A stretch of DNA of 64,000 bases from Chloranthus sessilifolius (Eukaryota > Streptophyta > Magnoliopsida > Chloranthales > Chloranthaceae): the NCBI GenBank assembly GCA_021018995.1, contig CM037593.1, positions 11,684,088-11,748,087 on the forward strand. Reading direction: 5' to 3'. Below the pieces are notes generated by a model. That model worked only from the letters and a program-made list of their open reading frames with translations. It was not told where the DNA came from and made no database searches. Each line of letters opens with the position of its first letter. The first letter of the stretch is position 1. Of the stretch, positions 6,001 to 46,543 are shown piece after piece. The position numbers were made by a program, and so were the translations under genes.

Positions 6001-6055
6001 AGTATTGCCTTTTATCTTGAGAGCCATCCCATGGATAATTTGCAACAAGTGCACC
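6001..6055 (-). CDS. SOL1: SOL1 exon 9 (last exon in window)
   Basis: Acceptor gtctgcag|GGTGCA. The 55 bp encode 'GALVANYPWDGSQDKRQY' plus one base, directly continuing exon 8 ('SASLHG' then 'GALVANYPWDG'). The proposed donor CAATACT|GTTTCT is weak but gives the phase expected before the family's 'YACPDD' segment, which should be in the next exon left of the window. Confidence 0.88.
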
Positions 6056-9000
6056 CTGCAGACAAAAATAGAAGTTTGCAGATTAAGGATCTATAATTTT
6101 ATATCCATTTTAAAATTAACAAATAAACTCTTGAACCAAGATGTTCACTGAACTCATACTCCATATGTTAATACTTCAATACGACAAACATCTATATCTT
6201 CAATTTTAACAAGCATGTATCAGCTGTTATCTGAACTAAGAAGCTGACAATTTTTTTATTTTTTTTTATAGATAAGAAGCTGACAATAGATAATACGTAA
6301 ATATGGAAAACATGTAAATGGGACATACTCGATCTTAACAGTAGCACAGACACATTTCATGGAAACAAGAAGAGACAAAATTTAAGGACACTTGTCCGAT
6401 GATGTCATTCTTAGAACAATAGAGCATAGACTTGACATGCCGGTTAAGTCTATTTGCTGCACCTATTTACCTTTGTATGATACATGTCAAACTCATTTAT
6501 CGAGAATTTTTTTTTTCAATAAACAATGCATACACTGCCAGAATTCAATAATACAAAATCATCAAATTCTCAAAATCAATACTACCAGAAAGGAAATTTG
6601 TTGAAACACCCAATTTGATTGTTGGTCACAATCTACTTAAATTCAAAAGCACCCTCATCAACCGATTCAAGGATGACTAAGGTCTGCCTTGAGCTTAGGG
6701 TCGGTGACTGGCTTTGTGGGAGATGCCGTAATGTTAATTTTCGCCGGCGGTCCATTTGCCATCGCATTGGTTGCGAGGCCACCCGGGCTCAGGGCAAGAG
6801 TGTTGCACCCACCGACGACGGGATTTCGATGGAGAGGATTGGGAGGCAGACCTTTTTAAGTGAGTCACAATGGCGCGACATTGATCGGGGGTGGTCGATA
6901 GCTGCGGGGAAGAACAGACCGGTGATTACGTCCTCCGCGGCGACTTTCGAGCACCGACCCAGCTCGTCGTATGCCGGTGCTGTGAGCAAGTGCCGGGTCG
7001 GCTCACTGCCGGGTGGGTCCCAGGCTAATGATGACCACTCTTGTCCCAGGCCACTTCCCTTGGACCTCCCTCAGCTGCGTTCTCTAGCTGCTAACCTTCG
7101 ACACTTCTGGGTGGTCATTACTACTAACAAAGATTGTTTATCATTGTTGTCTATACATTGCTGGATTAATTACAACTAGGAAATTACAGCCAGACCTATG
7201 CTATCTACTATTTCTTCCTCCATGTTCCTTTTGCGTTTCAGTTCGGAGGAAGGTGCCTCCGCTCTTTGCCTCAAAAAGCGGTTATACATCAACGGTTGCC
7301 AGGTAGATTGTTGACGATGGGAGCCTTCGGTTGGCGAGATAGGAGTTCATGAGGAGAGAGAGGGGGTATGGTTGAACAAATTTGGGCTCCCGTTACACGC
7401 GTGGTCCCCGGAGGTTCTCCTAGGGATCGGGAATCGATGTGGTCGATTTGTTCGTGTTGACTGGTGATCCGCGGACCTCTAGGATACGACACACGCTCGC
7501 ATCCTCGTCGACTCGCTCGCTAGCATCCCCCGCACCATCGACCTACTGATTGGCGACCATCGATGTCAGCTCGTTGGAGAAATTGAGCGTATCGAGCAGA
7601 TGGTCATCGAGCATCAACAGATTGAAGTTGGTTCGGGGCTCGCTCCCTCTGACGGTTGCCTCGTAGATCGCCCAATAGTAGAAGTTCAGCAGGTGCGGGA
7701 TTCAATCGGACATGGAAGGGCTTCAACAGATCGGATACCGACGAGAGGTGCGCAGGGGTACTCGGCAACGCACACTGCGCTCGACCGGGGCTTTCTCAGC
7801 TCTCCGACCTCAGTGACGATTGCTGGTGTCGATTCCCGGTTGCTCCGGCTCACTCATTCTTTGTCGTTTGAGGGTTTGGAGGTTGGCGATGCGGCTGCGC
7901 CGATGGCGGATGGGTCGGAGATGGATCTCGCACCAACGAGCAGATCTACGGCTCAGATCACTTCATGTGATGAGCCAGAGATGGTACACCTGCACATACA
8001 GAGGTTAGGTGAGATCAGGGGGTTGTCGGATGGGAAGGACGATGTTGGAGGGCGTACCTGGGATCCTATGGAGCACGAGGCCGCCGGTTTTCAACTGCGG
8101 AATGTTTCTTCTGTCCCCAAAAAGGTCTTCAGGGTTTATCGTAGAAGAACGGGAGGGCTTTTGTCTCGAGGAGCGAGGGGGCCTGTGGGGATGACACGTT
8201 GAGCTCCTCTGGGAAGCTCTCGACCGTCTTCAGTGCTGGATTTGGGTTTTGACTGCGGGGTTTATAAGAGGGGGAGGGTGTATTCTGCTTTCCAGATGGG
8301 GACACGTGGCCTGATTACGTGTCGATCGGTGAAGCTATATTGGGATGAGATGAGGGGGGGTGGGCCCGTGCTTGGGTCTGACGGGTTTCGGGCTTCCCAT
8401 GTGGGAGTGGGCTGCTTTAAATTAACGGGTCCAGTTCGCTTGGATCTCGGGGGTGGTTTGGCCCAGGTCGATTCAGGGGATGATATGCTGGGTCTTAGGT
8501 GTCGGTTGTGGGCTGCCCCGGATGCTCACTTAGTCCTCTATTTTGAGGAAGGATGGAACCATGGGCTTATTTGCAGGCGAGGATTTAATTTACATGGCAA
8601 TTGCGGAATTCAGGAGCTCTTGAGGCGTGGAGGCTGCTCCTGGGGTGTTGATGTCGGATCTGTCGATGTAGGGTGCTCGATTTCTGATGTGCCTTATTCG
8701 TCTGAGCAGGTGGGGGAGACACCAGACTCGGACTCTAATGACGGGGGGAATCATATGGAGTCGTGGTTGCAGTTGTTGGCCCTCCAAGAGGCCTCTGTGG
8801 GTGTCGTTGATTCGACTCTTGGGGATGACTTGGAAATTGATAGGCTGATTGAAGTAGGGAGAAATCTCGGCATGTCGCTTGTAGGATCGCAGGATGAGCT
8901 GCGAGCACTGTTTCGATCCGTTATTTCCTCTCGCCAGGATGCCAGGAGGAAGCGGCGGGGTGGTTCGCGGGAACTCGCGAGATTGCAATGGGGTATGTCG

Positions 9001-12000
9001 GATGGGAGAGGGGCGAGGGGTCTGTAATTGGGGTTTTAGGTGGGCGGGCTCAAAGATTTTGATAATGAGGATGTTATCTTGGAATGTTAGAGGGATATGC
9101 GACCGATCCAAGAGGGCGGGGGTTAAGCAGGTTATTGCGACTGCTAGCCCGGCGGTGGTCACACTCCAGGAGACCAAGTGGGGCTGCTGCGATCGGAGGA
9201 AGGTCAACTCGGTTCTTGGAGGGATTGGGTGGGACTGGGTCGGGGCTAACTCAGCTGGTGCCTCGGGGGGTATTTTAGTGGCGTGGAAAGCAGATTTTTT
9301 CGATAAAGAGGATGAGGAGGTGGGACAGTACTTGGTCTCGGTTGTGTTGCGAAATAAGGATTCGGGGAATCGGTGGGTATTTGCGGGTATATATGGGCCG
9401 TCGGTGGATCACGAACGTGGCGACTACTGGTTTGAGTTGACGGCTAGGTGGAACCATCCTCTCTGCCTTGGGGGGGACTTTAATGTTATTAGGTGGGAGT
9501 ATGAGAAGAAGGGTGGTCCGCCTAATGCCGGGGTGATGCGGGATTTCAATTCCTTTATTTCTGACAGGGGGCTCATGGACGTGCCGCTCTCGAGGGCACG
9601 TTTCACGTGGTCGAATCAGCAGGATAACCCATCGCTATCCAGATTGGACCGTTTTCTCGTGTCGATTGATTGGTTAGAAGTGTTCCCAGGGGCAAGGTTG
9701 GAAGCTCTTGCTCGGCCGGTCTCCGATCACCGCCCTTTGCTTTGCACGTGTGACTCAAAAGGGAGGGGGCTTACACCCTTTCGGTTTGAGAATATGTGGC
9801 TGTTGGATGCGTCGTTCAGCGAAAATGTTCCGGTGTGCTGGCGAGAAATGAGTTGCATGGGGATTGCTGCGTACCGTTTTATCTCCAAACTCCGGTATTT
9901 GAAGGGGAGGATTAAGGGGTGGAACCGGGATGTGTTTGGGATGGTGCAGGCCAGGAAAGTGAATCTGCTGAGTAGCTTAAAGGAATTTGATGATTTAGAA
10001 GAGGAGAGAAATCTTAATGGGGAGGAAAGAGAGGATCGGCTGAGGAAAAAAATAAAGTTTGACAACATTTGTAGGGCGGAGCAGATCAGTTGGATGCAAA
10101 AAGCCAAGGTTAAGCGGCTAAAGGAGGGGGATGCTAATATGAAGTACTTTCATATTGTGGCCAACGCTTGATTTCAGTTCAAGTATCTGGGGAGGGTCGT
10201 GGTAGATGGGATTGCGGCTGAGGGCGATGACCAGGTTCGGGAGCGAATTGTTGCTTTCTACAAATCCCTATATATGGATGAGGGCTTTACGCGTCCGCAG
10301 TTGGATGGGGTGTCCTTCCAAACTAGTTCAGTGGCGGAGAGGGAGGCATTGGAACAGGTCTTCACGAAGGATGAGGTGTGGCACGCAATCAGATTTGGTG
10401 GACGGAATAAAGCACCAGGTCCTGACGGGTTTACTATGGAGTTTTTCCGGGCGTTTTGAAATTTGATCGTGGTGATGGAGGTCATGTCGAGTCTCACCGA
10501 TGGTTTAAATCGGGAGGGCGCTTGGTTCCACATTTATTACCCTGATCCCGAAACGCGAGGGTGCTGAAGATATCTCCGATTATTGGTCCATCTGTCTAAC
10601 CAACTGTCTCTATACGATTATGGCTAGAGTGCTTGCTAACAGATTAAAACCTTTGATGAGCAAAATAATTTCGGGGAATCAGGGAACTTTTGTGCGTGGT
10701 AGACAGTTGGTGGATCTTGTTGCGGTGGCGAATGAGACCATCCATTCTGCTCATATTCAGCGATGTCCGGCGGCGGTTTGGAAGGTGGATATGGAAAAGG
10801 CTTATGATCGTGTCTGTTGGGAGGGTATTGACTATATACTAGGAAGGATGGGATTTGGTGACATTTGGAGAAAATGGATGTGGGGTTGTTACTCTTCCGC
10901 GTGGTTCTCGGTAATGGTCAATGGCACTCCGGTAGGTTATTTCAAGAGTTCTCGGGGTATTCGGCAGGGGGATCCTCTATCCCCTTTCCTTTTCAATGTT
11001 GTGAGCGAGATGCTTTCTCGGTTGATCGACCGGGCCAGGGAACGTCAGCTCATTTCCGGCATTCGGGTGGGGATGCAGGGCAGGTGCATCACGCATCTGC
11101 AGTATGCGGATGATACGATTCTCTTTGGGAGAGCGGAGGCTTCTGAGCTCAAGGTGTTAGGGGATGTGTTGTCTGTGTATGAGGCTGTCTCGGGGCAGCG
11201 AACCAACCTCCTTAAATCTGCCATTACAGGGATTGGGGTCGGCGAGTCCGACTTGGCGACACTGGCTTTCTCCATCGGTTGTCCGACTCAGCATCTGCCT
11301 ATTACCTATCTCGGTCTTCCGTTGGGTATCAGGAAGCTTATGGCCAGGGATTGGCAACCGGTCGTTCAGCGTTTTGAGCAGCGTCTTTCAGCTTGCAAAG
11401 GTAAACTTGAGTAGCGCTGGCAGATTGGTCCTGATCAAGGCGGTTCTTTCTTCCATGCCCATTTTCTATATGTCAATGTTTTACTGCCCGGCGAAGGTGA
11501 TTTGCTGCCTTAAGAGAATCCAGTGTTCCTTCTTGTGGGAGGGCTTGGGACGAAGATATCATCTGGTAAATTGGGAGATTTGTCAGTTGTCGGTTGCTTG
11601 TGGTGGACTGGGTATACACAGTCTTAGGCAGATCAACCACGCACTTCTTGGGAAATGGTTCTAGAGAGCTGGTAGGGATGAGGAGAGGGAGGGGATTTGG
11701 AGAAAGGTGCTGGTTGAGAAGTATGGGCAGTCCTCAGGTGACTGGGGTATTTGTCCGATCGCACGCAGAGGTTCTTCTGCATGGTAGAAAGGGCTGTGTG
11801 GGGTTTGGTCCAGCTTTGCAAGTGGATTGCGCTTTAGTTGGGGGTGCGGTACCAGAATTCGATTTTGGTAGGATGTCTAACTGGCTTCCTACCCTCTTAA
11901 ATCCAGTTTCCCTAGCATTTATGCTTTATCTGTGAATCCTGGGGGAATGATAGACCAGTTTGTTTCGATTGTCAATGGGGCGGTGGTCTGGACTGTTCAT

Positions 12001-12997
12001 ACCCGCAAATCGTTGACTGATTGCGAGATGGCGGAGTTCTCTAATCAGCTTCAGCTGCTGTATGCGGAGCAAAGCAATCAGAGGGTGTGGGCTTTGAGTA
12101 GGGATGGCAACTTTACGATCAAAAGCTTATATAAGTTGGAGACGCGTCGCCCGCTTATTATGTTCGAGGGGCGATGGCTGTGGAAAGTTCCTATTCCTTA
12201 TAAGATCAGGTTTTTAGTGTGGACTCTTTGCAAGGATAGAATACTCACACGGGACCAGCTAATATGTAGGGGGAAAGATGTTGCGACTTCCTGTGCTATG
12301 TGCACCGACGGGGAGGAAACTGCGGCACACCTTTTCCTTCATTGTCAGATGGCCTGCGCGGTTTGGAATGTGGTCTTCAAATATTTGGGCCTGAGCTGGG
12401 CTATTGTGGAGACCCCATACCAACATATTCTGAGTTGGGTTCCTAGGATGGGGGACGTTGACGGACAGACGCAGTCAAGATTTGTGGTCTTCGCGGTTTA
12501 TTGGTGTCTGTGGCTTGAGCGCAACTCCAGAGTTTTTGAGAATATTAGCAGGTCCACGGGGTTCATAGTCAAATCTGTCATGGATCTTGTTGATTTGTGG
12601 GAGGGGGGAGTTGCGGAGGGGAGAGGGCAAACTTCTACGGTGTGGGATTCAGGCTAGGTGCTGTCCGGTGCTGAGTTTCTTTCTCTTTTCCCTTTTCTTT
12701 TTTCTTATTTCTCGTTGTCGGGTTCCCCCATTTTCCCTTTGATAATGTTGAGGTGTCGGTTGTATTGGGTTCTCAGCGCCTTGCTGTGTTTCAATATACT
12801 GCTTTTTTACTGATCAAAAAAAAAAAAAGCACCCTCAATTGAAAGAGATAATAAACAATTATCAAAGGGAATAATGGGTGTAGAATAGTATATGTACATT
12901 GGTGTGTAAGTGTAATAATGGGTGTGCGAGTTGTAATCCTGACTAGTATTAATAGGCTAGTAGGATTATTCTAATTCTAACTAAGCCATTTTACTTC

Positions 12998-13048
<51 letters not shown>

Positions 13049-15086
13049 ACCAAACCCTAACCCTAACACTTTCATTAAGTCAAGCTGGTATCAGAGCCAT
13101 CGGGACCATTGGATTCATTTTCTGATCATCACTGACACTTGCTGACATCACCCATCCCCTGCTAATGTCAGTGCTAACATCAGCAGTCAAAGTTTGACTG
13201 CAACAGAATCACCAGAAAACTCCCACAATTGATCAGAATTATAAGACGAATATTTTATTCTCTTGCTGCAATCTAATCTTTAGCTTCTCCATCTTTGCAT
13301 TCTCCTGTTGTTATTCCTTCTATTGTTCATGATCTTTCTATTCTGATTGCACATCGTAAGGGTATGACAAGTTGTGTTACCTCTTATCCTATTGATCAGT
13401 ATGTTTCTTATAAGGATTGTCTCATTCTTATTGAGCATATGAGCTGCCATTGAGAGCTTCTTCTGTCACCATTCCACGTTCTGTTTGAGAAGCTCTAAAA
13501 AATCCTCTATGGTCTGTTGCATCTTGAGAGGAATAGGACTTGGGAACTTGTTGATTATCAACCAGATAAGCGAGTTGTTGAATGTAGATGGGTATTTTCC
13601 ATCAAATATTGGGAAGACGGTATAGTTGTGAGATACTCGATTGGTTGTTAAGGGATTTTTACTCATGTCCTTGGCTTGGATTACACTGCCACCTTTGTCC
13701 TTGTGGCAAAGCTCACTTCAATTCGTGTTGTTACTTCTCTAGCAGCTCATCATAATTGGCCTCTCTACTAGATAGACGTCATGAATACTTTTCTCCATGG
13801 TGATTTGGATGAGGAGGTATACATGGCACCTCCTCCTTCAAATTCAAGGGGAGTATTCAGGGAAAGTTTGTCGACTTACCAAGTCGATCTATGGACTAAA
13901 GCAACCTGAGGGCTTGGTTTCATTGCTCAGTACAGTTGTTCATGTCATTGGCTTTATGAGGTGCCACTCAAATTATATGTTGTTCATTCACAGCAGTTAA
14001 GAGTGGCTTCACACTATTTTTTTGGTCTATGTTGATGATATCATCATCACAGGGATGATACTGTATTTATAGCCTCTACGAAGGCATGTCTGGGTAGAGC
14101 CTTCGATGCGAAAGATTTGGGGCACCTCAGGTTCTTAGGTATTGAGATTGCAAGGTCAGATGATGGCATTTCTCTCTCAGAGACAGTATTCAATTGAGTT
14201 GCAGAGGGACACCAGCATGCTCGGGTGTAAGCATGCCAGATCTCCTATGGATCCCAACCTTTATCCTCATGTGGATGCTGGTGATCCTCTTCCCGACCCC
14301 TCAGTATTAGCGGCTTGTTGGGAGGCTTATATACCTCACAAACACTAGTCCCAATTTGGTGTTTGCAGTCTCTTTGGTAGCCAGTTTATGCCTGCTCCTA
14401 GGACTCCTCATATGGCTGTGGTCATTGGATTCTCCGCTATATTAAGGCCTCTCCTGGTCGAGGTCTATTCCATGGCGATGGTGGCAATCTCCATCTTAGC
14501 TGCTATAGTGATGCAGACTATGCAAGGGCTCCCACTGTGGTGTGGAAGAGTAAGAAGCACGATGTTGTTTCCAAGTCTAGTATCGAATATGAGTATTAAG
14601 GCCACGACACATGGGACTATTGGGCTTCTTTGGCTACGTTCTCTTCTTACTGAACGTAGTTTTTACCATCACTTCCTATGCCCCTTCACTGTGATGACGA
14701 AGTTGCTATTGATATTGCTGGTGATTCAGTACTCTATGAGAGAACTAAGCATATTAAATTGGACATCCACTTCCTTCGTTTGAAGATTCAGGCTGGCTTC
14801 ATAGAAACTCCTAACGTTTCTTCTTCTCAACAACTTGTTGACGTCTTCACCAAAGCGCTTGGTCCTTCACTTGTTATGATATTATTCTCATGTTGACCAT
14901 GATATATATTTGTGCACCAGCTTGAGGGGAGTATTGGAGTATAGGTGGTTGTATGTAGTGTAGAGTGTGTGCAGATTAGTATTTGTGCATTGGTGTGTGA
15001 ATGTGATAATGGGTGTGTGAGTTGTAATCCTGATTAGTATAAATAGGCTAGTGGGATTATTCTAATTCTAAATAATCCATTTACTT

Positions 15087-15139
<53 letters not shown>

Positions 15140-22834: not shown

Positions 22835-22893
<59 letters not shown>

Positions 22894-37800: not shown

Positions 37801-40800
37801 ACCCAGTACCTGTACATGCTAGCTGGTACAAACCCTTTATGAAGCTTAAAATATCATGCACTGGTGGTACATTGGCATTTTGTACCAGAACGATACTTAC
37901 AGAACGTCTTTTTCTTGTGTACCGAGTAATATTTTAAATCTGGTCCTTGGAATATCGCAGGGAAAGAGTTTAAAGGCTTCTCGAGATCGGTATTTAGGGA
38001 GTAGACCGCCACAGGAAATCGTCATCAGACAATTACGGAAGCTCAGGGTTCCCAGGGAAATGAATCTGGTGGTAGGCCCTCTGCGAAGGATAGACTTCGA
38101 TCGAAAGAAAGGTTTGGTGATAAAGATGTATTGATCGAACGGAGTTTTTCTTTTAACTCCTTTGGGCGTCACCCCCTTGTTAGCATTCTGGGGTGTCTTT
38201 CAGGGATGTTGTAGTTAGGGGACCCACGCTTGCCTCAGATGCGGTGCATCCCAAGCAGGACGATGGAGGTCAGGGCAGGAGAACGCATATTCTAGGTAAC
38301 TTTGTTGGTCGTGATTTGAATGTTAAAATAAATGCTTCCTTTGATGTTTGGGGCTTTTCTTATGCTAATGATGCTGAAATATTCTCTAAATCTCAGATTG
38401 TTGCAAATATCCCATAAACATCCCTCTTAGGGGGGAATCCTTATTTCGATCGATCGAAATCGCGCGATAATGAACTTTTTTTTTGAGTTCGAACTTATGT
38501 TTTAGGGGTAAATTTGTCTTTTTATGTTTTATTTTCGTTTTAAGTTTTTATTTTAGGACCTCCTATATAAGGTCATTAGGAAAAACAATGTAATTAGTTA
38601 TTGATTATGAATTAAAAGAGTTTTTGATTGTATGTTTGAGATGAAGCTCTATGAAGAGTGAATCTTCTTCCCGAGAAGGGTTTGGTGTGAAGCCCATAAC
38701 ATCTATCTTCTATCTATTTCTTTATTTTTATTTTCTTTCTTTGCTTCTAAATATTTTTATAAACCCGAAATCATAAACTCTAGCTTTTCCCTAATCCATT
38801 GAACCGATCCGATTCAATAACCCTAGATCTCACCTGAGCCATTAAACCAGTCCACATCAAATACCCAAAGAAAACCAGTGATCCCGTCATTGGATTGTGA
38901 GCGCCCTAATCTAGAAAACCTAGAGTTCTACCTCTAGGACCAATCTGCACCACAACTCTAACGGATCTAGCGCAAAGACTGGACCCTTTCCTGAACCCGG
39001 ACGTGATCTTTCGTATGAAAAACGATGGAACCCTAAGGTAACCGCATTATTTTTAGGTTTATTGTTCAAGTTAATTTAAATCAATTTCGGCAAGTAATTA
39101 ATTCATCGCTTTCACGTAGTTTAGGGTTTTGTCCTGCGTCACCGGCTCCGGGGAGAAGACATGTAGACAGTCTTGTGGGTGGCGGCAAAGATGCGATGGA
39201 GAATGTGATCCCAGTTGGGGGGTTGAACGCAACAACTAGGGCGCAACTGTTGGAGCTCGGATTTGCCTGCGCAGGCAGCCACGACTGAACTCACGACCTT
39301 CTCTTCGTCTTGGGGGTGCCATATTAGTGAGAGCAAGGTAGTTAAGGCGGTGTAGCGAGGTCATAGCGAAGAGGCTCGCTACGCCATAGCGAGACTATTT
39401 ATTAATTTTTAAAAATGTATTATATCTTTTAATTAGTAGTATTTTTCTTTTTTACTTTTTATTTGTTTATATTTTCTATATAGGAAGGAAAAAAATATAT
39501 AGGAGAAAAAAAAATTCAACTACTGAAGCATCATACTTTGATTTTGATGTTGAGGATTTCATGTTCTAGAATATCAATAAATACAAATCAAATATGAAAC
39601 ATCAACAAATTTGTCACATGATAAGTATTAAAAATATATATAAACAAATATTAAATATTAAATACGCATACCGTAGTGTCGCCAACGCTAACGTTTCATC
39701 AACCGGTAACACGCTGAGGTTTCGTGACGAGAGAGAGAGTTGAGGATTTTGTAACTTATAAGTTGGGCTTTTGTAACTTGTACGTTAACTTTTGTAACTT
39801 ATATATTATAAAAATAACTTATAAGCATTATAAGATATAACAATGTCATACTTATAACTTATCTATTTTATAAGTACTATACGTTATTATCCAAAAAATC
39901 AAATAGCGTTCATAGCAACGCCATAGTGCTATTTTGCCATGGCGACGCTATAGCGTCGCTATTTAGTCATTATGGCTATTCGGTTGTATATGGCGTTTCC
40001 CATCGCCATTTTCCATAGCAAGGCTATAGCGTTGCCTTGACTACCATAAGTGAGAGAGAACTGAAGTTTTACTCTGTTGAGGGAGTTGTTGAGGACTGGG
40101 TGGAAACGGGGAGGAGAAACTGGTGGCAGAAGGGGTCCCGATGGCCGAGGGGGAGTGGGTGGTGGCGGGAGGTTCCTTAGAGGATCTCTCGTTGTCTGTA
40201 GATCGGACGACTGAGATGAGAAGCACGATTGATGACGCGGGTTTGAGTTTTAATTCATATTTATATTTGAATTCAAATTTTGTAACCGAGATGGAGTCGG
40301 AACAAATTCGAAATGGTGCTTTTGTTATGTTGTGTGACTAGGGTGGATGGTGGGGGAGTGTAAATGTGTCACCTCAGATACAAGTGGCATTAGATGTGAC
40401 ACTGGCAAGGCTTTTCACAAGAGGCTGGGATTGGCCTGCAATTTTGGAAGGATGATTCAGGGACTTGAACAATGATGACGACTTTGTGGAGAGGGGGGAC
40501 GCCACATGGCACCAATTTAACGGATGAGGTGATAGCTACTGACAGGCCAATATAGGCTGTCGTCGAAGACAAGTTATGTGAGATCCCAATGATCTTAAGT
40601 GGTCCAGTTACTCAGGCATCAATGCCAATGTCCTGATGTGCACGAATCTCCATGGCATAGAGCTGGTGGGTAACTCAATGGTGGAGGAATCCAGGGTTAG
40701 TATTCCAGACTCAACTAACTTTAACAATCCTTCTTGCAAACAAGCCTTATGCCCTCCCGTGAACGCAGGGATGAGTACAAGTTCCGACCTCGCTTCTTCC

Positions 40801-43800
40801 CCTTCTAGGCCTTTCGGGCCTAATATTTCTAGCTTCTTTTTTGTCAGAGGTAAGAATTTTTATTGTAATACAAGTTGCTTTGAATATGAAAATAGGTTTA
40901 GAGGCTGGGGTAGTGAGAATTACTTTTTTCAATCCAGAAGGGTATCAATCGTAATGCAAGTTCGACTGATCTGAAATACCCTCTGTAGAAGCTTCTCCTC
41001 ATCAGGGCGAACAATGGGAACTCCTTTGCGTTGGCCAGCCAGCAGAGGATACTGGGGAAGGCTGCAGAGGGGAATTTAGTTCTGGTAGTCAGCACATATT
41101 TTACAGGAAAGTTCAGTGCAGAGGGAGATTGATAAGGAAAAGGATAATGGGGAATCAGCTGAAGGATGAGATATGGACTAATGTGTTACCTTTGAGGTCA
41201 TTGGGGATGGATGAATCAGGGACCTGGTCTGATGTGAGTCAAAGCTCTGAGGATAGTAGTAGGGGGGTCATCGTTAGAAGATAGGGGTATGGTGTATTGT
41301 AGCATAAGACAGGATGTAAATGATAAGCTGATAAGAGTTTGGAAAAGAACATGGGATGTCTTTCGACATGACCCATGCAGCATTACGGGCTCTGTTTGAA
41401 TCAATTGAAAGGAGATGAAAGGGAAGAACGTCGAAAAATAAGCACAAAGGCAAGCGGGAGTTGGCCAGATTAGATTACGATCTTATGGGAAAGGGAAACA
41501 GTCAGGGAGTAAGGGAGAAGTCGTGTAGTGCTTGGAGTTGCTGCAGGTAAATTTGTGGTGGTCTATGATTGTTCCTTTATACATTTATTTATCCTGGAAT
41601 TTAAGGGGTCATTGTAATCTGAATAAGGGGGTTGCAGTGAAGAATGTAATTTCTATCCAAAATTTGGGGATAGTTACTCTTCAGGAGATCAAACGGGGGC
41701 ATGGATAGGAAGAAAATTGCTTTGGTTTGGGATGTAATAGATGGGATTGGGAAGGTGTTGATTTGGTTGGTGCCTCGGGGGGTATTGTGTTCTCTTGGAA
41801 CACTCTTAGGTTGGAAAAATTGGATGCTGAAATTGGTCTTTTGTCTATTTCGGTATTACTGTGAAATAGAGATAGTAGACGAAAATGGGTGTTTACAGGT
41901 GTGTATGGTCTAAATGAAGATGCTAGAAGGGACGCTTTCTGGTTTAGGAGGGGACTTCTAACATTATCCGGTTTGATCATGAAGAAAGAGGGTTCCGACG
42001 GATAGAGCTGGTATGAGCAATTATAGAAGTTTCATCAATGAATACTTCCTGATGGACTTCCCATGAAGATAGGGAATGTTACTTGGGCTAGTCTGTAGAA
42101 TATACCGATGCTTTGTCGTCTTGACATATTTCTATGTTCCCCACAATGGTAGAATTTGTAATCAGATGCTACTTTGGAAGGACTGGCCAGATCTGTACTG
42201 GATATTCAGATCATAGACTGATTATCCTTAAATGTACTACAAGGGGAAAAGGTCCATCTCCTTGCCGGTTTGAGAATATGTGGCTTCAGTATGAGAAGTT
42301 TAAGGAGCTGATAGTCAAATGGTCGAATGAGGATAGAATGGAGGGTACGGCAGTCCATCAGAATTATCCATAAATTAAAAAATCTGAAAGCCAAGTTTAA
42401 AGCTTGGAATGTTGAGGAGTTTGGGAAGGTGGAGAAGGTTAAAGAGGAATTACTACAAGAGCTACAAATATACAGGAAGAGGGAAGAAATTTGAGGCATG
42501 AAGAAGGGGAATTAAGGATGGCTGCTAAGTTAAAATTAAATCATAAGTCTTTGGAAGAAGAGATTATGTGGAAACAAGTCATAGGCACAGTGACTAATGA
42601 CAGGGGGTAGTAACACAAACTATTTTCACTCGGTAGCAAATGCCCGGAATAAAACAAACATATGGGAAGCTTGGTTGTGGATGATAATAGATTTGAGGAT
42701 GCAGAGCTAATCAGTGCCCAAGTTGTTAATTTTTATAAAAATTTATACAAAGATGAAGGATGGAATGAACCGATGGTTCAAGGATTGAATTTCAAGAGAA
42801 TATTGATGTTGTTAGGTCCTCTCTATAAGCAAGTTTTGGAGACGCTGGGATAAAGAAGGCGATTGTGAATAGTGGCAAAAATAAGGCTTCAGGGCCTGAC
42901 AGGTTTACTCTTGAATTTTTCAGAACGTTTTGAGAGTTCTTGAAAGGGGATATCGTGGAACTCTTTCAGGAATTCCATAACTAGGAGTACACTGGTAAAA
43001 GTTTAAACTCTACTTCTTTTTTTTTATCGGTAATTGCTCGGAACTATATTAGAAAAAGCAGCGAGGGGCTGTCCAAATACAAACAGAGGTTTGCATCGAC
43101 CACAGGAAAAGAGCAAAAAACAACAATGCCGCAAAGCGGCGCAAGGGCAAGAGCGCGCTCGCAAAACATAGATCGAGGGGAAGAGGAGGATGAGGAGAAA
43201 GGGAGAAGCCCCCGGCCTAGCCAGGCTCCCAGTGTAGAGCATCCCCTCCAATCCCCATTTTGTCCAAGGGAGCCCAAAGGCACATAAAGTCTCTAGCCGA
43301 CTTCAAAACCATCCTGACAGGACGTCGATTGCGGCCAAAAATGCAGGCATTTCTCTCGAGCTAAATACACCAAACGACCGCAAAGAAGTCGACTCTCCAA
43401 AAAGCCCGTGGCTGACCCTCGATGCGTACACCGAACCAAGCTAAGAACTGTTGAGAAATAGAAGGACACCCAACACAAATCAAAAGACTCCAAGATAACC
43501 CCTCAAATCTTGTGGGCCACCAACAGTTTAAACTCTACATTTATTACCTTGATGTTGAAAAAAGAATTTAAACAATTGTTGTGTTATGTGTTTACAAATG
43601 CAGGAATCAGCTAGCCATCTATCTTTATATTGCTAGCTTTGTGAGAGAAATATGAGAAATCTAATTTCAAACCTTTCGACTAAGATGGGTTTTATAGGAA
43701 GATTGTCGCCAAATAATGGCAGCTTGGAAGAGGATTGAATTCAAAGGAATCAAAGGAACCTTCTGGAAGGCTGCTATGCTTACGGTGTTTTGGGGAATTT

Positions 43801-46543
43801 GGCTTGAAAGAAACGAAAGGATATTTAGATGGATTCAGAAGCCTAAAGGAATGGTGATGAAAATGGTTTGTGATGTTATAATAGAATGGATCATATTGGA
43901 CAAAGAGGCGGCACTTGAGGTGGATAGTGATATGATTGGAGCCTAAGACTGCCTGCATTTTAACCTTCTTTCCTCGCGATAAGGGGAAAGTCTCCTGGGC
44001 TATTGCGATTTAGTCTCCTATTTTGTTTATTTGGGATGGTTCTTTTATGTGGACCTTATTTTTCCTTTGTTAGGCCTCAACACCTCGCTATGCCTTCTTT
44101 GTGTTTCTCTGGTCTCTTAATGAATTCCTTTTGCCATTAAAAATATATATATATCAAGCATTTCAAATTGAAATTAACAATACTTTTTTATTTTATTTTT
44201 TTTCTTTGACAATTTTTTTAGAGTTCTTACATTCTTTCATCAAAATAAACAACCTCATAAAGACTTGGCAAAACCAACATGGTATCAAAGTTGGTCACTT
44301 GCATTTGGATACGATGTTGATCCTACTTAGATTACAAATTAAGAACCCTTTTTTATTCAAGTTCACAATTAATCTAAGCCTCCAATAGATCACTTTAAAA
44401 TTTGCATTGAGCCCAATCTTTTGTGCTTAAAATTGAAATAAACATCAATTCATTAAAACTTAGTAGCAATCACTAATAACCATCATCATCATCATCATCA
44501 CCACAGCCTTATCCCATCTATTTGGGGTTGACTTTGTGAGTCTTATTTCTCCACTCGTTTCTTATCATCACTAAGCTCTCTGCAACTCCACAATCCTTCA
44601 TATCCCTTTCATGGCCTCCCTCCAAGTCTCCATTGGTCTCCCTCTCCTCCTACTTCCCCACCCTTCACAGAGGGTGTATTTCGTGCCTCCAATGAGCATG
44701 TCCAAACCACCTCAAGTGACATTCCGTAATTTCTTCCTCTATAGGTGCCACTCTCAAATTTTCTCTTATATATACTCTATTCTGAATTTTATTTTCCAAT
44801 TACTCCATACATCCATCTCAACATACGCATCTCGGCCAAATGAACTCTATCTTCTTGTCGCTTTTTCGTGGCCCAACATTCTGCACCATATAATAATAAT
44901 ATCATAACTTAGAAGACATTAGTATCATAAGAAACAAAATTCAGTTCCATGGCCATACTTTTTCGCTCTAAAAGGCAAAAACAGCTCATCAACCAGCCAA
45001 AATATTGAAGGATATACATTTATTTATTGTTATTTCCTTAAGCGGTTTTCTCCTTGTTTTATTTTGCATATTGTTTTAGAATTCTTACATTCATTCATCA
45101 ACATAAACACCCTCATAAAGACTAGGTAAAATCAACACCATATCAGAGTCAGCCACTAGCATTTGGATATGATGGTCTTTAATCCTTGATTCTACTTAGA
45201 TTATCAATTAAGAACCTATTTATCCAAATTTACAATTAATTTGAGTTTGAGCCTCCAATAATCACATTAAAATTCGCATTAAGCCCAATCTTGTGCGCTT
45301 AAAAGCGAAATAGACATCAAGTCATTAGAACTTAGTAGCAATCACTGATAGTCATCACCATCATCATCACAGCCTTATCTCGTCTATTTGGAGTCAGCTT
45401 TGTAAGTTCTATTTCTCCACTCATTTCTTATCGGCACTAAGCTCTTTGTAACTATGCAATCCTTCATATCCCTTCGCACGACTTCCCTCCAAGTCTGGTC
45501 TTCCTCTCCTCCTACTACCCCAACCCCCTTATAGAGGGTATATTCCATGCCTCCAATTAACATGTCTAAACCACCTCAAGTTACATTCCGTAATTTTTCC
45601 TCTATAGGTGCCACTCTCAAATTTTCCCTTATATACTCTATTCTAAATTTTATTCTTTCTTGTTAACCCATACATCTATCTCAACATACGCATCTCAGCC
45701 CTATGCACTCTATCTTCTTGTTGTTTTTTCCTGGCCTAATATTCTCCACCATATAATAATAACTTAGAATAAGTATCCTAAGCATAGTGACCAAGTAGGG
45801 AATAAATAGGGGATTGGACCTTTGCCCTAGAGGTGATGCCCTCAAGTATGTAGCGTTGAGGTGAGGGGTTCAAATCCCATACTTACCTACCAACAAAAAA
45901 AATCCAGGTATAAATCGGCTTGGAAAAAAATCCGGCAAAATTCAGAAAAAAATCCGGGGAAAAAGTCAGAAAGTTCGCATATCTCGAGAATATACGATTT
46001 TTCAAAAAATTGCAAATAATTCATATTTTTTCAAAAATTTGTGAATTAATCGTGACTTTTCAAAAAGCCGGCGAATTTGGTCACTATGATCTTAAGAAGC
46101 AAAATTCAGTTCCGTGCCCATACTGCGTCCAAATTTTTGCTCTCAAAGGCCGGAACAGCTCATCAACCAGACGAAATATAGTAGAATTTAGATTTATCAG
46201 CCAAAAAAAGGCTACTGACCAAGGAAAATAATCAGAGATCTCAAATCTACCAATCCAGTTTCAAAAAATGCACGAGATGATCTGAAATTACTGCAGAGAG
46301 GATCCAATGTATGGTTACAATTATCAAAAGATAAATATCTAAAAAGTAAAAACATATCATGGAGAATAGCTTCGATTCAACGAGTATGGGAACCTAGAAA
46401 ACGCCAAAAAAAAAAAAAATTAAATTATGGTCGGATGAGGTCAAACCTGAATTATTGGAGATCGGTTGTTCTCCGCCTCTTGCAATCGAGAGATTTACAG
46501 AAGCCGCAAGGGCGAAGAAGACGATCAGAAATCGAAACTCCAT
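6001..46543 (-). CDS. SOL1: SOL1-like M14 zinc carboxypeptidase, 5' nine exons (3' end outside window)
   Basis: Nine exons on the minus strand join without a frame break: 46543-46447, 46281-46251, 35755-35663, 35131-35101, 34986-34930, 30373-30278, 26278-26156, 26003-25899, 6055-6001. They total 688 nt, about 229 residues of a family usually near 490. The product opens with a signal peptide, then 'ARGGE'. It carries the first zinc-ligand motif HGDE (residues about 109-112), the substrate-binding stretch 'NPDGF...NNVDLNRDFPD' and the third zinc ligand in 'SASLHG' (H about 210). The catalytic Glu and the transthyretin-like and membrane segments should lie in exons left of the window. Known family role: Arabidopsis SOL1 is an endosomal/secretory Zn carboxypeptidase that trims a C-terminal Arg from CLE19 precursor peptide. 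All introns begin GT and end AG. Function here is inferred from homology recalled, not searched. Confidence 0.88.
6056..6657. other. SOL1 intron 8, 3' end
   Basis: AT-rich intron between the exon 9 acceptor and the L1 target site. It includes the left TSD copy of the L1 (aaaagcaccctca, 6645-6657). No other feature seen. Confidence 0.6.
6673..9027 (+). pseudogene. L1 ORF1: RanBP2-type zinc finger plus DUF4283-like domain (broken)
   Basis: The start is ATG 6673. The N terminus 'GDWLCGRCRNVNFRRRSICH' followed by 'RIGC' fits the RanBP2 zinc finger W-x-C-x2-C-x3-N-x6-C-x4-C. The DUF4283-like nucleic-acid-binding domain follows from about 7222 ('MFLLRFSSEEGASALC', 'VWLNKFGLPLHAWSPEVL', 'CGRFVRVDW'). 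The C-terminal end 'GMSLVGSQDELRALFRSV' to 'SRELARLQWGM' is the usual end of plant L1 ORF1. It is interrupted by a stop at 7177, a frame change around 7320-7367 and back before 7600, and a stop at 8200. Its role in a live element is binding element RNA in the retrotransposition particle. Confidence 0.8.
9065..12657 (+). pseudogene. L1 ORF2: endonuclease, reverse transcriptase, zf-RVT (broken)
   Basis: ATG 9065 lies 38 bp after the ORF1 stop. The APE-type endonuclease shows 'SWNVRG' (9077), 'LQETKW', 'GGDFN' (about 9472) and 'SDHRP' (9722). The RT shows 'KAPGPDGFTMEFF' (about 10410), 'VDMEKAYDRV', 'GIRQGDPLSPFLF' and the catalytic YADD at 11103-11114. The zf-RVT knuckle 'CAMCTDGEETAAHLFLHC' (about 12294-12347) and 'WCLWLERN' precede the stop at 12655. 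Length is about 1197 codons, normal for plant L1. Stops lie at 10169, 10457, 11662, about 11788 and about 11866, mostly in Trp positions or one CGA position, and the frame changes between 10459 and 10540 and near 11400. Confidence 0.92.
13000..13045. repeat. (CT)n microsatellite in Copia left LTR
   Basis: Uninterrupted CT dinucleotides followed by ctaccaaaccctaaccc; the same arrangement is in the right LTR at 15091-15137, so the tract is part of the LTR. Confidence 0.95.
15091..15137. repeat. (CT)n microsatellite in Copia right LTR
   Basis: Uninterrupted CT dinucleotides in the right LTR, the counterpart of 13000-13045. Confidence 0.95.
15174..16020. other. Intronic DNA between two Copia remnants
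   Basis: AT-rich, with no protein family recognised. An open stretch at 15174-15374 has no similarity I recognise, and its first codons fall at the Copia LTR edge. Probably plain SOL1 intron plus the start of the next Copia element. Confidence 0.4.
16021..18730 (+). mobile_element. Broken Copia-type retrotransposon (gag, pol remnants), no LTRs seen
   Basis: The order is Copia-like: a gag start ('NLNSSSYLQWKIV', about 16050), a glycine/arginine-rich stretch with a zinc knuckle ('CFPCGKAGHDHDHC', about 16450), then after an inserted TIR element an RT region ('GSGWVFVVKHNPDGT', about 17945, 'VAKLTLIEVS') and the Copia segment 'PASTTMDPK'-like near 18610. It is heavily broken and old, with no LTR pair recognised. 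The right edge meets a short GC-rich piece and the L1 at 18825. Confidence 0.75.
16784..17595. mobile_element. Non-autonomous TIR element rich in GATAC palindromes, inside Copia remnant
   Basis: Terminal inverted repeats gcatgggtcaaaatat (from 16784) and its complement atattttgacccatgc (to 17595). Both ends carry many gatacataccggtat-like palindromes. It splits the Copia region between gag-like and RT-like parts. No coding capacity and no convincing TSD. Size (812 bp) and structure fit a MITE or MULE-derived element. A fragment of the same family lies at 3484-3576. Confidence 0.65.
18731..18824. repeat. Short GC-rich repeat between Copia and L1
   Basis: ggcctaggcactgcttagg and flanking GC-rich sequence resemble the cctaggc-type low-copy repeats of plant genomes. 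It separates the Copia right edge from the L1 3' break and belongs to neither by eye. Confidence 0.3.
18825..22278 (-). mobile_element. L1-type LINE, 5' part only (ORF1 and endonuclease), minus strand
   Basis: On the minus strand ORF1 starts near 22278. It opens with the RanBP2-type finger 'GNWVCSFCRDVNFRRRSVCH' plus 'RFGC' (W-x-C-x2-C-x3-N-x6-C-x4-C), then 'FLLRFQAEGMALELC' and a DUF4283-like 'VWLRLFGLLHVLTLEVL' (about 21420). ORF1 ends near 19811 ('SRELARLA'). The endonuclease (19738-18825) shows 'LQDTKWGHCD', 'GVYGPS', 'SRIDRF' and 'SDHRPL'. Similarity to the 6658-12828 L1 stops soon after the endonuclease, and RT and 3' end are missing. Several frame changes and stops. No TSD found. It is in sense orientation within SOL1. 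Confidence 0.88.
22730..22800 (-). repeat. Possible tRNA-related SINE fragment
   Basis: The minus strand holds GGGTTCAAACCCC (22734-22746), a B-box match, downstream of atggcttactccacaag. No clear A box or tail; weak call. Confidence 0.25.
22836..22890. repeat. (CA)n(TA)n microsatellite
   Basis: About 12 CA units run directly into about 16 TA units. Confidence 0.95.
23084..25388 (-). mobile_element. 5'-truncated L1-type LINE (RT to 3' end), minus strand
   Basis: A perfect 16-bp TSD tcactcactatgtcat (23068-23083 and 25389-25404) and a poly(T) run at the left (poly(A) on the minus strand) fix both ends. It begins in the first RT motif ('NSTFITLILK', 'SDYRPISLLNCLYK') and continues 'VDMEKAYD', 'GLRQGDPLSPFLF' and YADD (24811-24800). 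The post-RT region shows 'QRNFLWEGSGLGKRIHLVNW', then the zf-RVT knuckle 'CVMCHQEEESAAHQFLHC' (about 23590) and 'WHLWLERN'. Frame changes or stops near 25100, 24671, 24540, 24032 and 23531. It inserted into a MITE-like repeat and is in sense orientation in SOL1 intron 8. Confidence 0.94.
25405..25898. other. SOL1 intron 8, 5' end
   Basis: Right half of the repeat split by the L1 (to about 25620), then AT-rich intron up to the exon 8 donor at 25898. Nothing else seen. Confidence 0.5.
25899..26003 (-). CDS. SOL1: SOL1 exon 8: third zinc ligand
   Basis: Acceptor acatag|TTTTTT, donor CACGGG|GTAACA, 105 bp, phase 0. It encodes 'FFPMNNDVDARQPETKAI' through 'FTASASLHG'. The His of SLHG is the third zinc ligand. 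The intron to exon 7 is 152 bp and the next intron about 19.8 kb. Confidence 0.95.
26156..26278 (-). CDS. SOL1: SOL1 exon 7: substrate-binding Asn-Arg region
   Basis: Acceptor ccatag|GCAACC, donor ACCAA|GTGAGT, 123 bp, phase 0. It encodes 'VHLHILPTMNPDGFSLRRR' and 'GNANNVDLNRDFPDQ'. The NRDFPD stretch holds the Arg/Asn that bind the substrate carboxylate in carboxypeptidase D-type enzymes. Confidence 0.95.
26279..27175. other. SOL1 intron 6, first part, with a GGGTACC-family MITE fragment
   Basis: About 26560-26805 is a fragment of the dispersed MITE family (core 'cttctgattcaaagaagtc', end 'aaataatataggtaccc'), the same family as 52024-52446. The rest is AT-rich intron. Confidence 0.5.
27176..27490. 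mobile_element. MITE with CATAGTGAC-type TIRs
   Basis: Left end catagtcacaaagtccgg and right end gaatttggtcactatg form inverted ends. The flanks ctctggtt (27168-27175) and ctctgcgtt (27491-27499) look like an 8-9 bp TSD with one difference. The interior is A-rich with repeated ccggcaaaattc. Relatives lie at 34448-34793 and 45783-46088. Target size suits a hAT or Mutator-type non-autonomous element. Confidence 0.6.
27491..29569. other. SOL1 intron 6, unassigned stretch
   Basis: Several short open stretches (27479-27700 +, 28060-28248 +, 29183-28866 -, 29133-29366 +) with no family I recognise. Around 28480-28700 the base composition is GC-richer than its surroundings and may be a decayed insertion. 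No splice-consistent exon found. Confidence 0.35.
29570..29694 (+). repeat. Candidate tRNA-derived SINE
   Basis: ggtttgagtcc (29630-29640) matches a pol III B box. A possible A-box region precedes it (ccagcagattaggtaacgag), and a CT-rich then poly(A) stretch ends at about 29694. No TSD established. Confidence 0.35.
30278..30373 (-). CDS. SOL1: SOL1 exon 6: first zinc-binding motif
   Basis: Acceptor tatgcag|TTCATT, donor CACTG|GTATTG, 96 bp, phase 0. It encodes 'FIANMHGDEPVGRELL' and 'LLLANWLCDNYMKDPL'. The HGDE box supplies the His and Glu zinc ligands of M14 peptidases (HxxE). Confidence 0.95.
30374..32191. other. SOL1 intron 5, 3' two-fifths, with decayed repeats
   Basis: Related decayed units occur, such as aattccaaaaaat with aatgtaaaaaagtttt-like flanks (30180 and 31275) and atccatttgaaggaatcaa (31698 and, diverged, about 31808). 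An actcgactcaac-type repeat piece is at 30570-30680. No coding exon. From about 32010 the sequence may already be the left LTR described next. Confidence 0.4.
32192..33048 (+). mobile_element. Short LTR-retrotransposon remnant (direct terminal repeats)
   Basis: Two diverged direct repeats (about 32192-32361 and 32891-33048) share ttgaagcctcc, gtgagtgatt, ccgcccggtgtgagtgattc and tttttatagccc. After the left copy, agaatcaaagcaggttc (about 32374) resembles a tRNA-Met primer-binding site. The interior of about 530 bp has a short open stretch ('YGPPIYDLYVDEEDDAIDG') like retrotransposon sequence between gag and pol. Broken, with no complete parts, and old. Family not certain. Confidence 0.5.
33049..34437. 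other. SOL1 intron 5, middle, with a MITE-family fragment
   Basis: About 33240-33640 carries the dispersed repeat core (tctgatttgttaaagtcaac, atgtgccac, catcatctg-like inverted halves) seen at 26.6 and 52.1 kb. The rest is AT-rich intron. Confidence 0.4.
34448..34793. mobile_element. MITE with GTGACAAAATAC TIRs and 10-bp TSD
   Basis: gtgacaaaatac at 34449-34460 and its complement gtattttgtcac at 34777-34788. The flanking 10-bp repeat ttataaacat is perfect (34438-34447 and 34794-34803). The interior is made of cgtattt-type repeats. It lies 137 bp from SOL1 exon 5. Ends resemble the CATAGTGAC family at 27176 and 45783. Confidence 0.75.
34930..34986 (-). CDS. SOL1: SOL1 exon 5
   Basis: Acceptor ctatag|TGGGTG, donor TCAAG|GTGAAA, 57 bp in phase 0. 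It encodes 'WVIEISDQPGQEEVEPSFK', a strongly conserved SOL1 stretch. The intron to exon 4 is only 114 bp. Confidence 0.93.
35101..35131 (-). CDS. SOL1: SOL1 exon 4 (31-bp microexon)
   Basis: Acceptor atcag|TATTGG and donor CACTG|GTAACA. It completes the split Ser codon and encodes 'IGNSVKRNPL', matching the family's 'YSIGKSV-G-PLWVIEIS' across the junctions. Confidence 0.88.
35132..35662. other. SOL1 intron 3
   Basis: 531 bp between exons 3 and 4, AT-rich; no repeat or coding signal seen. Confidence 0.7.
35663..35755 (-). CDS. SOL1: SOL1 exon 3
   Basis: Acceptor ttgcag|CGATG, donor ACAG|GTGATT, 93 bp. It encodes 'DEARGYMSNSELEEAVKEF' and 'GRRCSNISRIY'. The GYM-S-N-S-ELE and RCSNISRIYSIG pattern is the conserved start of the SOL1 carboxypeptidase domain. 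Confidence 0.92.
36549..36675. repeat. AT-rich tandem repeat
   Basis: Two copies of a unit containing ccataaaaataaaat and aaataaataaatgttctgaatc. Confidence 0.7.
36840..37090 (-). mobile_element. Possible L1 3'-end fragment
   Basis: Starts with T9 (poly(A) on the minus strand), followed by aacaattaaaatttattac, like other L1 tails, and sequence without recognisable protein. No TSD. Low confidence. Confidence 0.25.
38448..39141 (+). mobile_element. Second copy of the CGATCGAT-containing LTR (partial)
   Basis: Shares with 987-1971 the cgatcgatcgaaatcgcg start region, cctatataaggtc TATA box (about 38563), agagtgaatcttcttcc and gagcgccctaatct, with the same right end gtcctgcgtca. It is shorter than the 987-1971 copy and has no internal element beside it. 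Sits in the decayed L1. Old and not functional. Confidence 0.8.
39334..40048. mobile_element. hAT-type MITE with 8-bp TSD
   Basis: An 8-bp direct repeat agtgagag (39326-39333 and 40049-40056) encloses 715 bp with inverted ends caaggtagttaaggc and gccttgactaccata. Subterminal GC-rich motifs (ctatagcgtcgct, cgccatagcg) recur on both sides of an AT-rich, non-coding middle. TSD length and TIR place it in the hAT superfamily as a non-autonomous copy, younger than the L1 it interrupts. Confidence 0.85.
43014..43524 (-). mobile_element. Short 5'-truncated L1 nested in the decayed L1
   Basis: A perfect 14-bp TSD agtttaaactctac (43000-43013 and 43525-43538) and poly(T) at the left mark a 511-bp minus-strand insertion. 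It encodes only the last part of ORF2 ('WFGVRIEGQPRAFWRV', 'VWCIYLAREKCLHF') and the 3' UTR with the ttaccgataaaaaa end. Confidence 0.92.
44224..44940 (-). mobile_element. RTE-type LINE 3' fragment, first tandem copy
   Basis: On the minus strand a region from about 44900 reads 'YGAECWATKK' and 'HLAEMRMLRWMYG', then degraded 'LEVVWTCSLEA', matching the C terminus of plant RTE LINE ORFs. It ends with tcaaccccaaatagatggga and the catcatcatcatc repeat (minus: gatgatgatg) typical of RTE 3' ends. It lies in a segment repeated at 45078-45775. Confidence 0.75.
45078..45775 (-). mobile_element. RTE-type LINE 3' fragment, second tandem copy
   Basis: A direct duplicate of 44224-44940: same order of ttcttacattcattcatc, agcctccaataatcac, catcatcatcacagccttatc, ccacctcaagttacattccg and catatcccttcg. 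Divergence is perhaps 15 percent by eye, with small indels. Confidence 0.8.
45783..46088. mobile_element. CATAGTGAC-TIR MITE carrying a SINE
   Basis: Ends catagtgaccaag and gaatttggtcactatg. Flanking 8-bp TSD atcctaag / atcttaag (45775-45782, 46089-46096), one difference. The interior shares ataaatcggcttgg and ccggcaaaattcag with the copy at 27176-27490. A SINE-like unit sits near the left end. Confidence 0.65.
45810..45902 (+). repeat. tRNA-derived SINE inside MITE
   Basis: B box ggttcaaatcc (45867-45877), a preceding A-box-like gccctagaggtgatgcc, and an A8 tail ending at 45902. The flanks agggaataaatagg and aggtataaatcgg look like a diverged TSD taken from the MITE. Confidence 0.5.
46251..46281 (-). 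CDS. SOL1: SOL1 exon 2 (31-bp microexon, predicted)
   Basis: Acceptor taatttcag|ATCATC and donor GATTG|GTAGAT enclose 31 bp. This is exactly the length class (1 mod 3) needed to carry phase 1 from exon 1 to phase 2 before exon 3, giving 'DHLVHFLKLD' ahead of 'CDEARGYM'. The intron to exon 1 is 165 bp. The phase fit is the main support; the sequence is in the least conserved part of the protein. Confidence 0.55.
46447..46543 (-). CDS. SOL1: SOL1 exon 1: start codon and signal peptide
   Basis: ATG at 46543-46541 opens 'MEFRFLIVFFALAASVNLS', a hydrophobic signal peptide, followed by 'IARGGEQPISNNS'; the 'ARGGE' motif is typical just after the signal peptide of plant SOL1 proteins. The donor is CAG|GTTTGA, leaving phase 1. 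A GA/CT-rich leader lies upstream. No other in-frame ATG gives a signal peptide. Confidence 0.8.

Follow-up and report, generated by a model that had tools for sequence, protein, structure and literature searches.

The locus is in all likelihood a complete and probably working SOL1 gene of 15 exons over 86.4 kb, whose introns have been swollen by insertions, some of them L1 elements from a lineage with a zinc finger in ORF1. The gene is ordinary in kind, since some large plant genomes are known to have long introns filled with transposons (PMC8626473); the finger-bearing L1 lineage is the more unusual part of the locus. The window is the whole stretch of 64,000 nucleotides analysed here (C10:11684088-11748087, in a genome of 2.17 Gb), and 80 kb to its left were added to complete the gene. 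All coordinates are those of the window, with negative values to the left of it.

Structure of the SOL1 gene

Exons were located by a motif scan and by tblastn with a provisional SOL1 sequence, and were then delimited by splice sites and phases. On the minus strand, the scan and tblastn placed the motif HGDE at about 30356 and NPDGF...DLNRDFPDQ at 26228-26180. The nine exons in the window are as follows.

46447..46543, minus strand: exon 1, with the ATG, an open frame and the donor TCAG/GTTTGA; its start is signal-peptide-like by eye
46251..46281, minus strand: exon 2, 31 nt, placed by phase and splice sites only; start uncertain
35663..35755, minus strand: exon 3, from tblastn to the provisional SOL1 sequence (E 3e-5) and splice sites
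35101..35131, minus strand: exon 4 (SIGNSVKRNPL), from phase, splice sites and alignment to duck carboxypeptidase D
34930..34986, minus strand: exon 5, from tblastn and splice sites
30278..30373, minus strand: exon 6, with the HGDE zinc ligands, from motif scan, tblastn and alignment to 1h8l
26156..26278, minus strand: exon 7, with NPDGF and NRDFPDQ, from motif scan and tblastn; sole M14 match of the genome search
25899..26003, minus strand: exon 8, with the third zinc ligand (LHG), from tblastn and alignment to 1h8l; splice scores weak
6009..6055, minus strand: exon 9, with a GC donor and an in-frame join to exon 10 at -3182

For exon 2, the in-frame starts 46290 and 46338 are alternatives with the same donor. 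The first-pass annotation had described nine minus-strand exons totalling 688 nt, and their positions, frames and splice sites were reproduced with the exception of one border: exon 9 had been carried 8 nt too far, to 6001, and ends at 6009, so that the total in the window is 680 nt. The border at 6001 is wrong because its ACT/GT end, read into exon 10, gives an immediate TGA. The donor at 6008 is instead a GC (AAAAG/GCAATA), which opens a GC-AG intron 9.2 kb long, and the join of exons 9 and 10 through it reads DKR-KEYTACPDD.

The gene had also been expected to continue to the left. Six further exons are found there, starting at -3182, -3491, -32553, -36796, -38137 and -39501, with the stop codon at -39820. 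The span of 40.5 kb given earlier describes the nine exons within the window, and the real total is larger. The complete gene, on the minus strand, has 15 exons, a span of 86,364 bp (C10:11644267-11730630) and a coding sequence of 1440 nt for 479 amino acids, with all reading frames open. Of the 14 introns, 13 are GT-AG; the exception is the GC-AG intron that follows exon 9. In exon order the introns measure 165, 10495, 531, 114, 4556, 3999, 152, 19843, 9190, 183, 28959, 4180, 1257 and 1300 bp, with 81% of all intronic sequence lying in the four longest.

The encoded carboxypeptidase

The protein is a SOL1-type M14 carboxypeptidase, as had been proposed. The 479-residue sequence matches PF00246 (Peptidase_M14) with 214.6 bits (E 2.9e-63; cut-off 21.6), and a stretch of 180 residues spliced from exons of the window matches it with 151.8 bits. 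Duck carboxypeptidase D (1h8l) aligns to residues 53-402, covering the catalytic and C-terminal domains, with an E-value of 1.4e-85. In this alignment HGDE, NRDF, LHGG and FELTLE are all retained, and the claim that the visible exons are in frame with their zinc ligands kept holds for all nine, with HGDE and LHGG present. We take the residues of HGDE, LHGG and FELTLE to be the zinc ligands (HxxE plus H) and the catalytic glutamate, respectively. Identity to Arabidopsis SOL1 (At1g71696) is 63% over 430 aligned positions, the reference sequence being provisional. The putative C-terminal transthyretin-like domain scores 28.4 bits against PF13620, below the cut-off of 32.3, and matches the carboxypeptidase D domain 5aq0 with an E-value of 2.4e-8. 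Inspection of the translation shows hydrophobic stretches at both ends of the protein.

The gene at the locus shares with Arabidopsis SOL1 the catalytic motifs, a probable C-terminal domain and the C-terminal hydrophobic stretch, whereas its span of 86 kb, its introns of up to 29 kb and its one GC-AG intron would set it apart. By homology, the enzyme would be a membrane-anchored zinc carboxypeptidase of the secretory pathway that trims C-terminal basic residues from the precursors of peptide hormones. SOL1 itself is described as a zinc carboxypeptidase that takes off a C-terminal arginine in the processing of CLE19 (PMC4526921).

Transposons in the introns

The introns and elements that were delimited in the window are listed below.

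6056..25898, minus strand: SOL1 intron 8, 19,843 bp, holding L1-A, L1-B, L1-C and one Copia element
35756..46250, minus strand: SOL1 intron 2, 10,495 bp, holding one L1, an LTR-like stretch and an RTE-like pair
4008..5381, plus strand (antisense): L1-E, a 3' half in intron 9, from tblastx to L1-A and zf-RVT
6658..12828, plus strand (antisense to SOL1): L1-A, from the start of ORF1 (ATG at 6673) to the poly(A) tail
12875..15178, plus strand: Copia remnant; paired LTRs (about 205 bp), primer site CTGGTATCAGAGCC
18804..22245, minus strand (sense): L1-B, with ORF1 (zinc finger, DUF4283) and EN, without the 3' half
23083..25388, minus strand (sense): L1-C, 5'-truncated, from RT to the 3' end, with the target duplication ATGACATAGTGAGTGA of 15-16 bp
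38446-39139: LTR-like stretch in intron 2
41335..43889, plus strand (antisense): L1-D, decayed, in intron 2, from tblastx to L1-A
44197..45762, minus strand: direct pair read as an RTE 3' end, 81% identical, K2P 0.159

The strand and the RTE label of the last pair are presumed from motifs. For the 19.8 kb intron, three L1 copies, two Copia remnants and a TIR element had been proposed, of which the three L1 copies and one Copia element with its LTR pair were checked and confirmed. The L1, the LTR and the RTE duplication that had been placed in the 10.5 kb intron were each found there.

L1-A is flanked by the target duplication AAAAGCACCCTCA at 6645-6657 and 12825-12837; its length is 9-13 bp, as the leading A's blend into the tail. 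Its ORF2 contains EN (PF03372, 53.2 bits), RT (PF00078, 98.2 bits) and zf-RVT. The earlier impression that the antisense L1s look older finds no support in L1-A, which has exactly the same target duplication on either side and is 90% identical to another genomic copy over 1101 bp. That L1 orientation is mixed was borne out: over the 86 kb, not counting short fragments, roughly six L1 pieces run sense and three antisense, and therefore no orientation rule emerges.

Between them, L1-B (ORF1 and EN) and L1-C (RT to the 3' end) make up an L1 whose two parts have changed places (18804-25392). A circular permutation of a single element was considered for this arrangement and ruled out by the target duplication that L1-C has of its own, which indicates two separate insertions.

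The LTRs of the Copia element differ by a K2P distance of 0.125 over 174 sites, a value that some badly aligned end bases may inflate, and a target duplication was not recognised around this element (12875-15178). Elsewhere in intron 8, at 16452-16493, lies a knuckle of the form CX2CX4HX4C (zf-CCHC_4 15.7 bits, below the cut-off); this knuckle-like fragment suggests that the intron may also hold a piece of a conventional L1 or of Copia. Introns 9 and 11 hold copies, at -1399 to 986 and -8896 to -6502, that are 82% identical; the first of these is probably a hAT element, as it has a frame with a BED zinc finger (PF02892, 29.6 bits). By eye, the 29 kb intron 11 also contains Ty3-looking open frames of up to 482 residues and an open frame of 605 residues (-18869 to -14877 and -13728 to -11914). 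A scan of the window with Rfam at gathering scores gave no match.

The introns of SOL1 would have grown by repeated insertion of transposons, with purifying selection keeping the exons and splice sites while the interiors of the introns drifted. The cell would then have to splice introns of up to 29 kb. Comparable genes are found among Chloranthales and magnoliids. Among 2184 orthologues of Chloranthus spicatus, 876 are longer than 20 kb, and the long-intron genes of these groups share with SOL1 unchanged exons and introns lengthened by transposons (PMC8626473, PMC7917104); in SOL1, by comparison, LTR elements are joined by a prominent set of L1 elements. The IBM1-type genes of Arabidopsis likewise carry transposons in heterochromatic introns that transcription has to traverse, and there the IBM2/EDM2/AIPP1 complex promotes the full-length transcript (PMC11265718). 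By analogy with IBM1-type introns, silencing chromatin over the transposons of SOL1 is probable. SOL1 is an extreme case of an ordinary kind of intron growth, and as such a useful test case for splicing and chromatin.

A working gene or a dead copy

We infer from the open frames, the single M14 match in the genome and the simulation of decay that SOL1 is probably functional, as the first-pass annotation had supposed. It is very unlikely that the gene is instead dead or dying, with exons that simply have not decayed yet. Such a copy would agree with the weak splice scores at exon 8 and the GC donor at exon 9, and with the sequence KRN in exon 4, where the provisional SOL1 sequence has QGF with a glycine that is kept in carboxypeptidases M and N. 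Duck carboxypeptidase D, however, is also without this glycine, and all 15 exons are open over 1440 nt. An intact SOL1 elsewhere, which had been named as the finding that would make this a dead copy, was sought by a search of the 2.17 Gb genome for M14 domains. The search returned one match (3 candidates, 3 scored), which is SOL1's own exon 7, and thus no retrocopy or second gene is seen at this sensitivity.

The time for which the exons could have stayed intact by chance was considered by simulating neutral decay of the nine exons, with the borders that total 688 nt, from the insertion of the Copia element onwards. At 0.0625 changes per site, half the LTR distance, the probability that all nine remain open, unshifted and spliced without selection is 0.00015-0.0054, the range being set by the indel rate. 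It is 0.001-0.015 at 0.05 changes per site and reaches 0.014-0.078 at 0.03, as would apply if the Copia element were much younger. Neutral decay since that insertion is unlikely at these probabilities.

A probable RanBP2-type zinc finger in L1 ORF1

Two L1 copies in intron 8 encode a finger near the start of ORF1, ahead of a DUF4283 domain.

6694..6783, plus strand: RanBP2-type zinc finger of L1-A ORF1, ahead of DUF4283
7087..7515, plus strand: DUF4283 domain of L1-A ORF1 (PF14111 59.2 bits, cut-off 27.2, with X at interrupting stops)
22239-22150, minus strand: RanBP2-type zinc finger of L1-B ORF1, ahead of DUF4283

The finger of L1-A, read from the eighth codon of ORF1, is LRVGDWLCGRCRNVNFRRRSICHRIGCEAT, and its counterpart in L1-B is LRAGNWVCSFCRDVNFRRRSVCHRFGCTSS. 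Their cores differ with pN 0.24 and pS 0.95, synonymous sites being near saturation. In a phmmer search of solved structures, the L1-A finger matches ZNF265 (1n0z; presumably the protein now called ZRANB2) with an E-value of 4.4e-5, followed by RBM10 (3.1e-4), RBM5 (0.0035) and FUS (0.035). With the L1-B finger the same families come first (0.032-0.044; RBM10 0.032, ZRANB2 0.039), and unrelated proteins appear from an E-value of 0.44.

Against PF00641, with a cut-off of 27, L1-A scores 16.5, L1-B 16.0 and a further genomic copy, L040, 17.9 bits; two diverged copies, L044 (27.8) and L050 (27.1), pass the cut-off, and L048 and L049, both at 26.8, fall just short. In longer ORF1 frames, Pfam gives no family for L1-B and 14.1 bits for the finger of L1-A. 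The 30 genomic loci that best match L1-A were aligned, a choice which biases motif counts and pN/pS towards conservation; among them the four cysteines are present in 30, 30, 29 and 28 loci, GDW, N, F and RR are mostly kept, and the pooled pN/pS over 435 pairs is 0.235. The spacing is CX2C-X10-CX4C in 27 of the 30, and departs at the last pair from the pattern CX(2,4)C-X10-CX2C of PF00641.

This departure, together with the scores of L1-A and L1-B below the Pfam cut-off, could be taken to mean that the stretch is a chance run of cysteines or an unrelated C4 finger. We regard this as improbable. The L1-B matches to structures are indeed weak, and an AlphaFold2 prediction for the L1-A finger, aligned to L1-B alone, gave no confident model (pLDDT 46.4). 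The L1-A match to ZNF265/ZRANB2 has an E-value of 4.4e-5, however; L044 and L050 exceed the PF00641 cut-off, and the CX4C spacing recurs in L047, which looks by eye like a host gene and scores 31.2 bits. The RanBP2 consensus is given as R/K-X-G-D-W-X-C-X(2,4)-C-X3-N-X6-C-X2-C-X3-R/K, and a typical L1 finger fits it except at the terminal pair, CX4C in place of CX2C, the remainder reading R-X-G-D-W-X-C-X2-C-X3-N-X6-C and C-X3-R (PMC7154859). The L1 finger, read as RanBP2-type, shares with the fingers of ZRANB2 and of plant RanBP2-type proteins the GDWxCxxC motif, the N, the RR and the first three cysteines; it differs from them in the CX4C pair, in a His for Asn after the third Cys (our own alignment) and in standing in a retrotransposon ORF1 (PMC7154859, PMC6384913).

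Distribution of the finger-bearing L1 lineage

A search of the genome with the finger region of L1-A returned 3187 candidates, and all 150 that were scored match with an E-value of 1.1e-25 or better, the window copy included. With PF00641 as the query, 147 of the 150 scored candidates match, from a total of 2354. DUF4283 (PF14111, cut-off 27.2) is found in L1-B (50.5 bits), L040 (68.4), L044 (55.9) and L050 (60.7), and lies below the cut-off in L048 (18.2) and L049 (15.9). L044 and L050 thus pass the cut-offs for both domains, and their fingers differ much from that of L1-A. By eye, the finger seems to be shared by three or more diverged L1 lineages of this genome. Among ten loci opened from the PF00641 search (L043-L052), L051 is similar to L1-B by eye.

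L040 has a single open frame of 783 codons with the finger (17.9 bits, below the cut-off) and DUF4283. Downstream of it lie a piece of EN (20.2 bits, below the cut-off of 24.5) and a piece of RT (48.5 bits), and the element has a target duplication of 15 bp; duplications were sought around L041 and L042 and none was found. In L1-A and L040 the element starts a mere 15 and 40 nt or so ahead of the ATG of ORF1 (6658-6673, and 351-389 in the numbering of L040), although target duplications bracket the two. The lineage may therefore be nearly devoid of a 5' untranslated region, or the two copies may be slightly truncated.

A CCHC zinc knuckle is usual in ORF1 of plant L1 elements. A knuckle of the form CX2CX4HX4C was absent, in any frame, within 1.5 kb past the finger in all 35 loci scanned (the 30 best matches to L1-A, L044 and L048-L051), where ORF1 is about 2.3 kb long. 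The ORF1 regions of L040-L042, which were seen whole, also had none, and Pfam gave no match on the C-terminal parts of ORF1 in L040 and L042.

Possible role of the finger

We presume that the residues that read GG are those at D, N, V and RR of the L1 finger. Fingers like those of ZRANB2 bind GGU, with the U read by two asparagines (PMC6384913). As the second of these is a His in L1 fingers, a preference for GG with a looser third base may be expected, and the finger would most likely bind single-stranded RNA that contains GG. By analogy, it would provide the contact for RNA packaging that the knuckle provides in ordinary plant L1 elements.

A more far-reaching proposal, which we put forward as a long shot, is that a large and old lineage of plant L1 elements exchanged the CCHC knuckle of ORF1 for a RanBP2-type finger from the host's stock of splicing factors. 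GGU being the core of the 5' splice site, the ORF1 protein may then sit on nascent pre-mRNA, and could steer L1 into transcribed introns and help to inflate genes such as the 86 kb SOL1.

Quite possibly plant L1 ORF1 has long had this finger and LINE specialists have catalogued it already, as its apparent presence in several diverged lineages would suggest; subscription papers and Repbase lie outside the literature covered. Among the matches listed in that literature, none joins RanBP2 fingers with plant LINEs by title or abstract. The only listed match with DUF4283, a paper on the Celine elements of poplar, names ORF1 by DUF4283 alone, and 'RanBP' and 'zinc' do not occur in its main text (PMC11288735). 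Celine and the finger L1s have in common DUF4283 in ORF1, EN and RT in ORF2, and target duplications, and differ in the N-terminal RanBP2-type finger of the latter, in whose ORF1 the CCHC knuckle was not found (PMC11288735). If the feature is confirmed as undescribed, it would mean that the RNA-binding modules of plant L1 ORF1 can be exchanged for a finger of the host splicing-factor type and retained over deep divergence, in thousands of candidate copies within a single genome. The finger L1s would also allow a simple test of whether the sequence preference of ORF1 shapes where LINEs settle.

Flanking sequence

Upstream of SOL1, at 49757-51911 on the minus strand, lies a LINE, apparently of another lineage than L1-A, whose RNase H-like domain scores 63.3 bits against PF13456. 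Further upstream, 58602-61335 and 61953-64000 are rich in repeats and include short tandem units and a frame that looks gag-like (21.4 bits against PF03732, short of the cut-off of 24.1). Beyond the 3' end of the gene, at -48295 to -49419, there is an open frame of 375 residues that resembles a GH17 glucanase by eye.
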